A program made the position numbers and the translations under genes. Under the pieces are notes generated by a model that ran no database searches, was not told the origin of the DNA, and saw nothing but the letters and a program-made list of their open reading frames with translations. Shown one piece after another: positions 52,696 to 54,857 of a stretch of 64,000 bases of DNA; position 1 is the stretch's first letter; every line of letters starts with the position of its first letter. This DNA is from Promicromonospora sp. AC04 (lineage in GTDB: Bacteria > Actinomycetota > Actinomycetes > Actinomycetales > Cellulomonadaceae), in the NCBI RefSeq assembly GCF_003058225.1, contig NZ_QBUG01000004.1, positions 372,001 to 436,000 of the forward strand, read 5' to 3'.

Positions 52696-53805
52696 TCAGC
52701 CGCGCCGCTCGCGGACTGCCTTCGCCAGGTCGCGGAGAAGATCCTCCGTGGTGTCCCAGTCCATGCACTTGTCCGTGACCGACTGGCCGTAGGTGAGCTC
52801 GGACAGCGGGCCAGGCTTCTGGGCACCCGCCTCGATGAAGCTCTCCATCATGAGGCCGGTGATGCCCCGCTCGCCGTCGGCGATGCGGTTGGCGATCTCG
52901 TGCACGACGCCGGCCTGGCGCACGTGGTCCTTGCCCGAGTTGCCGTGGCTGGCGTCCACGATCACGCCGTTCTCGACGGCGCCGCCCAGCCCGGAGGTGC
53001 GGGCCACGCGCAGGGCGGCAGCGACGTCCTCGGTCGAGTAGTTGGGGCCGGAGCGTCCGCCCCGCAGGATGACGTGGCAGTCCGGGTTGCCCGTGGTCTC
53101 GACGGCGGCGGCACGCCCCTCGCCGTCGGCCCCGAAGAAGGTGTGCTCGCTCGCGGCGGTGATGCAGCCGTCCACGGCGATCTGGACGTCGCCGTCCGTC
53201 GCGTTCTTGAACCCGACGGGCATCGACAGGCCGGAGGCGAGCTGCCGGTGCACCTGCGACTCCACGTTGCGGGCGCCGATCGCGCCCCAGGTCACGGCAT
53301 CGGCGATGTACTGCGGGCTGGTGGGCTCGAGGAACTCGGCCCCCGCGGGCACCCCGGCGTCGAGCACTCCGAGCAGCACCTCGCGGGCGAGGTTCAGACC
53401 GTGGCGCACGTCGTGCGTGCCGTCCAGGTGCGGGTCGTTGATCAGGCCCTTCCAACCGACGGTGGTGCGCGGCTTCTCGAAGTACACCCGCATGACGACG
53501 ACGAGGTCGTCGGACAGCTCGCGCCGGAGCAGGGCGAGCCGGGCGGCGTAGTCGAGCGCGGCGACCGGGTCGTGCACCGAGCACGGGCCGACGATCGTCA
53601 GCAGGCGGTCGTCCTCACCGGTCAGGACGTCGCGCACCTCGCGGCGGGACGTCGTGACGAGGTCGCTGCGGGCGGTGCCGAGCGGCATCGACTCCAGCAG
53701 GCTGCGCGGGGCAGGCAGCGGGTCGAGGGCACGAATGCGCAGGTCGGAGGTGCGGGTACCGAGGTCGGTTGCCTCGGTGCTGGGTTCCGCAGGGGTGATG
53801 CTCAT
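52696..53805 (-). CDS. aroG: Class I DAHP synthase
   Basis: The 369-residue enzyme has the class I signatures GPCSVHDPVAALDYA, MRVYFEKPRTTVGWKGLINDP, GARNVESQVHRQLASGLSMPVGFKN, LRGGRSGPNYS and DASHGNSGKDHVRQ. It condenses phosphoenolpyruvate with erythrose 4-phosphate, the entry to aromatic amino acid synthesis. ATG 53805 begins the conserved protein, with AGGAG upstream; the frame runs on upstream through the leader, but that is spurious. It is controlled by an attenuator, see the leader-peptide and terminator entries. Confidence 0.94.
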   Translation of the reverse strand: MSITPAEPSTEATDLGTRTSDLRIRALDPLPAPRSLLESMPLGTARSDLVTTSRREVRDVLTGEDDRLLTIVGPCSVHDPVAALDYAARLALLRRELSDDLVVVMRVYFEKPRTTVGWKGLINDPHLDGTHDVRHGLNLAREVLLGVLDAGVPAGAEFLEPTSPQYIADAVTWGAIGARNVESQVHRQLASGLSMPVGFKNATDGDVQIAVDGCITAASEHTFFGADGEGRAAAVETTGNPDCHVILRGGRSGPNYSTEDVAAALRVARTSGLGGAVENGVIVDASHGNSGKDHVRQAGVVHEIANRIADGERGITGLMMESFIEAGAQKPGPLSELTYGQSVTDKCMDWDTTEDLLRDLAKAVRERRG

Positions 53806-53893
53806 CGGGATCGGGGCTCCTGGTAGGCGAGGTCTGGTTCGAGGAACCGGACGGCCCGCCACCGACTCCTGGTCCGGAGCGGCCCGTCTCGGT

Positions 53894-53932
53894 AAAGACG
53901 AAGGGCCTGGACGCGATCGGCGTCCCAGGCCC
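53894..53932 (-). terminator. Attenuator terminator before aroG
   Basis: On the minus strand GGGCCTG-G-GACGC pairs with GCGTC-CAGGCCC (one bulged G, 5-nt loop), followed by TTCGTCTTT. This intrinsic terminator lies between the leader peptide and the DAHP synthase gene. A GGCTCC segment in the leader can pair either with a nearby GGAGCC or with the GGAGCC that borders the terminator, offering an alternative fold. Confidence 0.7.
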
Positions 53933-53953
53933 TGGCTCCGGGTGGAAAGTTGG

Positions 53954-54019
53954 TCAGGCGCGCGCCCGCCGGGCTCCACCAGGAGCCGACGTAAAGCGCC
54001 AATACCAACGGATGTCCAC
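53954..54019 (-). CDS. Aromatic amino acid leader peptide (attenuator)
   Basis: A 21-codon open frame starts GTG and reads MDIRWYWRF in its first nine residues: two Trp, one Tyr and one Phe codon within five consecutive positions, then an Ala/Gly/Arg-rich end and TGA. The terminator hairpin follows after 21 nt and aroG after about 150 bp. GTG is 7 nt downstream of TACCGT, so the message starts with it. Ribosome stalling at the aromatic codons when Trp, Tyr or Phe is scarce would favour read-through into aroG. Confidence 0.75.
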   Translation of the reverse strand: MDIRWYWRFTSAPGGARRARA

Positions 54020-54026
54020 GGCCAAA

Positions 54027-54056
54027 ACGGTAGCCTCAGCCCCGCTGGCTGTCCAC
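54027..54056 (-). promoter_or_regulatory. Promoter of the aroG leader
   Basis: GTGGAC, an 18-nt spacer and TACCGT precede the leader GTG by 7 nt on the minus strand. This is a good -10 with a weaker -35 and a start site exactly at the leader codon. Confidence 0.55.
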
Positions 54057-54125
54057 TGGATCCCAGGATGCGATCAGTCACAGTCCGCAGCTCCCGCCCG
54101 ACCGCCACCGGGCCCGCCACCCCCG

Positions 54126-54857
54126 CTACCGGGCGTAACGCTCCACGAACGCCCGCATGATGCGCATCGGCTCGGTGACCGTCACGGCGACGCACCGCTC
54201 GCTCACCAGCTCCGCCTCCTCGGACGGAAAGTAGCCGTAGTCCCGGTAGATCATGATCCGCTGCACGATTCCCGCAACGTCCAGCTCGGGGTGGAACTGC
54301 GTGGCGTACAGGTTCTGCTTGATCCGGAACATCTGCACCGGGCAGCCGGCCGACGAGGCGAGCAGCACGGCGTCGTCGGGCAGCTTGCGCACTGCCTCCT
54401 TGTGGCCCACGAACGCCGGGAAGGCCTGCGGCAGTCCCGCCAGCAGCGGGTCCGACGCCGCGTCCGGCGTGAGCTCCACCGTGACGGGACCCACCGGCTC
54501 CGCGAACGTCGGGTCGATCACCGCGCCCTGGTGCGCGCCCAGTGTCCCGACGCCGTAGCAGGCGCCCAGGAACGGGAAGTCGCGGGCCACTATCTCGTCG
54601 AGCAGCGTCGCGAGCTCCGCCTCGACGCGCCGCTGCACCGGGCTCTTCTTCTGCACGGGGTCCGAGGAGTTGAACGGACCTCCGCCCACGACCACGCCCG
54701 AGTAGTCGTCCAGGTCCACCGGCGGCAGCGAGTCGCGCTCGAGGCGCACCCGGTGCAGCTGCTCCGGCGCGAGGCCTCCGTACCGGCAGAACGCCGCGTA
54801 TTCACCGTCCGCGGCGAGGTCCTCCGCACGCGTCGCGAGCAGCAGAAACGGCTTCAT
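54126..54857 (-). CDS. Class I glutamine amidotransferase-like protein
   Basis: The 243-residue protein has a glutamine amidotransferase fold with the nucleophile cysteine in FLGACYGVGTLG, the VVGGGPFNSSDP loop and the QFHPELD histidine/glutamate pair. It resembles GMP-synthase-like GATase paralogues of unknown acceptor. The ATG at 54857 is exactly 6 nt after TACCCT, so it should be leaderless. It is encoded between the aroG attenuator and an ABC operon but shows no pathway link. Confidence 0.88.
   Translation of the reverse strand: MKPFLLLATRAEDLAADGEYAAFCRYGGLAPEQLHRVRLERDSLPPVDLDDYSGVVVGGGPFNSSDPVQKKSPVQRRVEAELATLLDEIVARDFPFLGACYGVGTLGAHQGAVIDPTFAEPVGPVTVELTPDAASDPLLAGLPQAFPAFVGHKEAVRKLPDDAVLLASSAGCPVQMFRIKQNLYATQFHPELDVAGIVQRIMIYRDYGYFPSEEAELVSERCVAVTVTEPMRIMRAFVERYAR

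Follow-up and report, generated by a model that had tools for sequence, protein, structure and literature searches.

The class I 3-deoxy-D-arabino-heptulosonate 7-phosphate (DAHP) synthase gene of Promicromonospora sp. AC04 is preceded by a strongly conserved leader that encodes a short peptide rich in aromatic residues. The gene lies on the minus strand of a 64,000-nucleotide (nt) stretch of contig NZ_QBUG01000004.1 (hereafter the window), and we read its leader as ribosome-controlled, with a probability of roughly 0.75. Neshat et al. (2014) reportedly described the aroR leader of aroF in Corynebacterium glutamicum, of which the leader studied here is probably a broad relative.

Between 54060 and 53803 on the minus strand, a TACCGT hexamer, 7 nt, a 21-codon GTG open reading frame (ORF), a hairpin and the DAHP synthase ATG (53805-53803, 148 nt past the leader stop codon) follow one another; the ORF list also offers an alternative TTG start 6 nt further upstream. 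GGCTCC (53987-53982) has two GGAGCC copies on its 3' side, one within the ORF (53977-53972) and one past the stop codon (53939-53934), and the alternative pairing of GGCTCC proposed in the initial annotation held up, with the near or the far copy as partner. The GC-rich hairpin T has the arms AGGGCCTGGGACGC..GCGTCCAGGCCCT, followed by TCGTCTTT. The elements are:

54027..54032, minus strand: -10-like hexamer TACCGT, 7 nt 5' of the leader GTG, in leaderless promoter geometry
53954..54019, minus strand: leader ORF MDIRWYWRFTSAPGGARRARA, 21 codons, GTG start, TGA stop, conserved in relatives
53993..54007, minus strand: control codons TGG TAT TGG CGC TTT (W5-Y6-W7-R8-F9)
54004..54009, minus strand: segment K, GTTGGT, inside the Arg-Trp-Tyr codons, putative partner of Z (compensatory changes, folding)
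53976..53987, minus strand: segment A, GGCTCCTGGTGG, within the leader ORF, putative partner of B or C
53972..53977, minus strand: segment B, GGAGCC, within the ORF, putative hairpin partner of the first half of A
53949..53954, minus strand: segment Z, ACCAAC, beginning at the last base of the stop codon, putative partner of K
53934..53945, minus strand: segment C, CCACCCGGAGCC, 3' of the stop codon, putative partner of A
53902..53933, minus strand: terminator-like hairpin T, 13 pairs, predicted by folding at about -24 kcal/mol
53892..53901, minus strand: tail TCGTCTTTAC 3' of T, an imperfect U-tract
53874..53885, minus strand: segment D, GGGCCGCTCCGG, a further candidate partner for C, not above chance in the window's family
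53817..53821, minus strand: AGGAG, Shine-Dalgarno-like, of the DAHP synthase gene
52696..53805, minus strand: class I DAHP synthase, 369 amino acids, PF00793 match

As first proposed, the cluster of aromatic codons exceeds chance. The window contains 472 ORFs of 12-30 codons with an ATG or GTG start; only 2 of them hold at least four aromatic residues within five codons, and of these two only the DAHP synthase leader has TAnnnT 6-8 nt upstream. The other, MPWALLASKHSRFWWWMFAKA at about 3633 on the plus strand, has no -10 hexamer at 6-8 nt and is probably due to chance.

The initial annotation had placed a leader peptide gene before the DAHP synthase gene and had staked this reading on conservation in relatives; checked there, the peptide proved conserved and the reading survived. 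The gene occurs in 71 of the 101 genomes sampled from the window's family, in 73 copies, and the leader stands 5' of 71 of these 73 PF00793-type DAHP synthase genes. A WYWRF-type leader was found at all of the first 30 loci; at the other 43, the TATTGGCGCTTTA motif occurs with at most two mismatches in 39 and RWYRF in two more. Both copies without a leader are paralogues in a single genome (L160 and L162 of G014), whose third DAHP synthase copy, L102, carries one, unlike the other two.

Among the best 80 named loci of a longer list, the leader is present in Streptomyces, Glycomyces, Catellatospora, Dietzia, Mycobacterium, Mycolicibacterium, Williamsia, Gordonia, Tsukamurella and Kribbella. Paractinoplanes has the variant FYWFTRPAP, and a QRAYFWFSRPAPGG-type variant occurs in Rhodococcus, Nocardia, Amycolatopsis, Pseudonocardia and Antrihabitans. 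In the same set, no leader was found in Bifidobacteriaceae (L005-L007, L009), Nocardiopsis (L011, L014), L017 or Gryllotalpicola (L027), and L015 has the motif without a clear ORF.

A class-wide sample has the gene in 67 of 345 genomes. RNA model R1 matches 35 of the 345, in 34 cases directly 5' of the gene, and a DAHP synthase-type gene follows the match in all 35; two R1-positive loci, L186 and L188, were counted as leader-bearing although no leader ORF was recognized. Reading of the 33 gene-bearing genomes without an R1 match revealed the leader in a further 10, which brings the total to 44 of 67; the remaining 23, 19 of them from family f88, yielded none. The one R1 match elsewhere, at L189 (176-1304), a locus of f88, lies 5' of a fusion of DAHP_synth_1 with a chorismate mutase domain, and Phe codons were read by eye in the leader. 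In a second family, f7, 101 of 121 genomes have the gene, and an aromatic leader, its start preceded by TAnnnT at a distance of 6-8 nt, was seen at all 20 sampled loci, each from a different genus. Across 140 leaders (duplicates included; search range 5-9 nt), TAnnnT lies 6 or 7 nt 5' of the start codon in 131, which bears out the leaderless arrangement suggested at the outset, as a matter of geometry only.

Short ORFs rich in Phe, Tyr and Trp were also seen about 50-230 nt upstream of proteobacterial class I DAHP synthase genes (L052, L058, L063, L066, L070, L076, L077, L078, L081 and others; for example SYFWYFSY and SFYFWYYGF), in genera such as Bradyrhizobium, Xanthomonas, Acidovorax and Polaromonas. 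By eye, they bear no clear resemblance to the actinobacterial leader.

For codon usage, 137 leaders were reduced to 112 distinct ORFs, excluding the proteobacterial L051 and L076 (caught by the motif regular expression) and the duplicate L001. These ORFs encode Tyr by TAT 122 times and by TAC 8 times, and Phe by TTT 112 times and by TTC 18 times; the DAHP synthase genes at the same loci (duplicate genes included) use TAT 6, TAC 409, TTT 1 and TTC 571 times. Its almost exclusive use of the rare TAT and TTT makes the leader a clean, testable case of codon choice contributing to a sensor. Trp, Tyr and Phe all occur in 102 of the 112 peptides, while Trp is missing from 8 (all of family f90) and Phe from 2. 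The codon between Tyr and Arg mostly specifies Trp, with Arg, Gln, Leu or Thr in some relatives. Because this second Trp is variable and some peptides have no Trp, the Tyr and Phe codons form the more constant part. The original proposal of one peptide sensing all three aromatics is plausible on this evidence, but as an unequal response: the joint presence of the three residues stood, equal sensing did not.

Conservation of the peptide could also mean that it acts in trans, with the RNA folds being secondary. APGGA, beyond the aromatic run, is conserved too, and peTrpL sets a precedent for a trans-acting leader peptide (PMC7298713; this and all other PMC sources are cited from the accessible part of their text). 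However, APGGA is encoded by segments A and B, and pairing between these can account for its conservation, the synonymous choice of TAT and TTT is conserved, and the second Trp residue is substituted in some relatives. We therefore regard a trans-acting peptide as highly improbable.

Pairing was assessed in 86 representatives, after removal of near-duplicates and of leaders with a post-ORF region >280 nt. Taking at most 5 of 100 equally good shuffles as the limit for a single sequence, A:C beats shuffles in 81 of 86. Hairpin T is absent from one group (Rhodococcus, Nocardia, Amycolatopsis and Pseudonocardia; hereafter the T-less group); an alignment of 70 rows without this group and near-duplicates contains 14 A:C cells in which both sides have changed, a count reached by 0 of 500 shuffles, with 90.4% of cells paired (88.3% in shuffles). 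A:B has one such cell (86 of 500 shuffles) and 94.2% of its cells paired. In L211, L212, L213 and L215, A and C have changed jointly, GGCTCT standing with AGAGCC. For K:Z, 62 representatives (TGA-terminated leaders outside the T-less group) show 27 both-side-changed cells versus 8.2 in shuffles, and the window's family alone shows 7 versus 1.9, matched by 0 of 500 shuffles in each case. Sliding K:Z by +2 yields 21 both-side cells, but pairs 26.7% of cells compared to 73.7% in register. When C segments were swapped between groups, the mean duplex energy with A was -24.8 kcal/mol for the own C and -15.8 to -22.9 kcal/mol for foreign ones in the window's family, -22.6 versus -16.6 to -18.9 kcal/mol in the group termed 'other', and -20.8 versus -13.6 to -22.1 kcal/mol in the T-less group, where the own C was not better. 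Since the swap hurts mainly the 'other' group, the co-change of A and C rests mostly on diverged lineages. RNAalifold on raw MAFFT alignments of the T-bearing group recovered neither T nor A:C, because the linkers align poorly. Taken together, the comparative data show A:C and K:Z to be helices with compensatory change.

Partition functions were computed for 71 T-bearing representatives with a GGCTC match (3 others lacked the match, and the 12 T-less leaders were set aside), on the assumption that the leading edge of the ribosome sits 12 nt 3' of the first base in the A-site codon. The predicted mean probability P of A:C is 0.44 without a ribosome and 0.88 with a ribosome at Tyr, where A:C exceeds 0.5 in 64 of 71; the corresponding values for A:B are 0.55 and 0.11. 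For the window leader, K:Z plus A:B is predicted without a ribosome, and P(A:C) rises from 0.00 to 0.94 with a ribosome at Tyr. By computation, the window leader would therefore have two exclusive folds, A:B with K:Z or A:C, set by ribosome position. A ribosome at Phe, with the footprint assumed above, partly covers A and lowers the mean P(A:C) to 0.05; in the window, the Phe codon begins 8 nt 5' of A (leader nt 25 versus 33).

Under ribosome control, transcription would probably start at or beside the GTG and, judging from the geometry, a 70S ribosome would translate the leader without a Shine-Dalgarno (SD) site. The RNA could then adopt either K:Z plus A:B, pairing the control codons with the stop region and GGCTCC with the near GGAGCC, or A:C, using the far GGAGCC. 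At low levels of charged tRNA-Trp or tRNA-Tyr, the ribosome would wait on TGG or TAT, covering K and leaving A free to form A:C; in good supply it would reach the stop codon, restoring the near fold and leaving C free. General leader logic and the aroR precedent suggest that the C-free state means low and A:C high expression, and the output may be read-through at T or a step downstream of T.

Several results weigh against this scheme. Kinship of the sequences inflates the covariation counts. Counted by pairs, A:C has three with both-side changes, which 73 of 500 shuffles match, and only 33 of 86 representatives have a K:Z better than their single-sequence shuffles. A foreign C costs little outside the 'other' group and nothing in the T-less group. 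A:C is already above 0.5 without a ribosome in 31 of 71 representatives and stays at or below 0.5 at the Tyr stall in 7 of 71. A Phe stall covers part of A, and Phe scarcity would therefore act unlike Tyr scarcity; in C. glutamicum, the aroF leader is described as enhanced by Phe limitation and unaffected by Tyr (PMC11802643). Neither candidate output follows the fold. In the 64 representatives with a cleanly picked T, P(T) never drops below 0.85, whether A is present or absent, and the two states differ by no more than 0.1. Predicted SD access, computed for 77 of the 86 representatives (9 without a recognized SD site excluded), is independent of the fold state, with 13 up and 17 down; in the T-less group it goes up in 5 and down in 3 of 20.

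The behavior of T bears directly on textbook trp-type attenuation, in which A:C or an unrecognized fold would serve as antiterminator and a ribosome at the stop codon would let T terminate. T is a stable GC-rich hairpin adjoining C, the 64 clean representatives contain 57 different versions of it with 8-17 pairs each, its tail contains some U, and the C. glutamicum aroF leader has been described as an attenuator transcript (PMC4046766). However, T shares no bases with A or C, the 9-nt tail 3' of T holds just 2-7 thymines (mostly 3-5), a simple scan found no terminator in 53700-54200, and the T-less group lacks the hairpin. Over all 86 representatives, P(T) with A falls by >0.1 in one and rises in six, and all seven changes fall among 22 leaders, namely the 12 T-less ones and 10 in which a longer overlapping hairpin was picked. 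An antiterminator taking up the 5' arm of T was not found, as A:C neither overlaps T nor shifts P(T). Simple competition between terminator and antiterminator thus found no support in the partition functions, and we consider textbook trp-type attenuation less likely than not. Of the intrinsic terminator in the initial annotation, the terminator-like GC-rich hairpin was retained, with a weak U-tract and no detection by the simple scan; classical attenuation was not fully borne out, since the GGCTCC pairing lies off the hairpin, whose predicted formation does not depend on that pairing.

Because A:C does not touch T, we also considered translational control, in which free C would pair with D and release a downstream segment to mask the SD site, A:C relieving this block. 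All 12 of 12 T-less leaders have a C:D pairing better than shuffles, as do 28 of 86 representatives overall (6 of 13 in micro/strep, 4 of 16 in myco, 4 of 6 in 'other'), and local hairpins cover the SD site in several T-less leaders. In the window's family, however, C:D is at chance (2 of 39), and SD access is unlinked to the state; we rejected the cascade A:C, C:D, D:E, E:SD as a general mechanism on these grounds and judge translational control quite unlikely. In the T-less group itself (L019, L021, L024, L031-L035, L040, L042, L214, L216, L217, L236-L241), C pairs with the following D in a hairpin of about 8 pairs without a clear U-tract, and in several of these leaders the region 5' of the start codon folds over the SD site.

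The output is the weak point of the ribosome-control reading. The sequence sets up no competition of T with A or C, and we class the leader as attenuator-like rather than as proven trp-type, because neither T nor SD access follows the fold state. We consider it unlikely that this is a widespread actinobacterial aromatic leader working without overlap of terminator and antiterminator, in which ribosome position would determine the capture of C by A and the codon order would make Trp and Tyr stalls (A free) differ from Phe stalls (A covered), so that a single peptide would read three amino acids with unlike outputs before the shared entry enzyme.

The DAHP synthase is the sole PF00793 match in its 6.85-Mb genome, and its upstream neighbor on the same strand is a class I glutamine amidotransferase-like gene. 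A simple scanner reported no sigma-70 promoter and no terminator in 53700-54200, a result that speaks against the observation. A window-wide hairpin scan for tail comparison was uninformative, and its criteria omitted T itself. Between 53000 and 55400, Rfam gave no matching family and two weak miRNA matches, both below threshold, and no covariance model match assigns the leader to T-box or other Rfam leaders.

The routes to the three aromatic amino acids and to many natural products of actinobacteria all begin with DAHP synthase, and their control would converge on a conserved leader that carries Trp, Tyr and Phe codons. In our literature search, which had subscription papers outside its scope, an actinobacterial leader before DAHP synthase was described only in C. 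glutamicum, and five leader peptide strings retrieved no paper. As far as the literature was searched, the breadth of the leader, its composite reading of Trp-Tyr-Trp-Arg-Phe, the signature of rare codons, the covariation in K:Z and A:C and the lack of a textbook antiterminator are new. The last point echoes PMC1262725, in whose accessible text attenuator components are often missing in actinobacteria; the aligned leaders make this puzzle testable.

The arrangement that the initial annotation found striking has a precedent in aroR, a Phe-Tyr-Phe leader before aroF of C. glutamicum (PMC11802643, PMC4046766). A ribosome stalled at aroR reportedly increases transcription of the operon behind it (PMC11802643), and leader-controlled genes of C. 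glutamicum, including aro, rise on total starvation (PMC6892785). Both leaders place clustered aromatic codons in a peptide directly before an actinobacterial DAHP synthase gene, but the window leader reads Trp-Tyr-Trp-Arg-Phe, unlike aroR, which was compared by description rather than by sequence. Two loci, L223 and L224 (probably Corynebacterium), have WRFYF leaders with, by eye, the same order of A, C and hairpin, and suggest an anatomical link to aroR.

In their accessible parts, other surveys list related elements elsewhere: PMC1262725 covers trp, trpS, leuS, cys, ilv, leu and ileS elements of actinobacteria and reports that none of the further amino acid pathways showed conserved structures, PMC8079986 describes eight Streptomyces lividans leaders with none for Tyr or Phe, and PMC5784534 gives trp, ilvB and leu leaders of C. 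diphtheriae without an aro leader. The Acholeplasma motif uORFC-13-1 before aroF, a candidate upstream ORF with at least one Phe codon and a terminator (PMC8632094), resembles the window leader as a Phe-codon upstream ORF before a DAHP synthase gene, in another phylum and by description only. The Rfam Trp leader (RF00513, as numbered in PMC4046766) shares the idea of ribosome-mediated control, without an Rfam match here. With trpL of Corynebacterium and Streptomyces, the leader shares a control-codon peptide and a terminator hairpin, here terminator-like, before a biosynthetic gene (PMC1262725, PMC8079986), and trpL1 of S. lividans is leaderless, like the geometry here (PMC8079986). Unlike trpL, which has Trp codons and complementary terminator and antiterminator hairpins (PMC1262725), it combines codons for three aromatics with a predicted switch for which no such overlap was found, and probably represents a broad relative of aroR.
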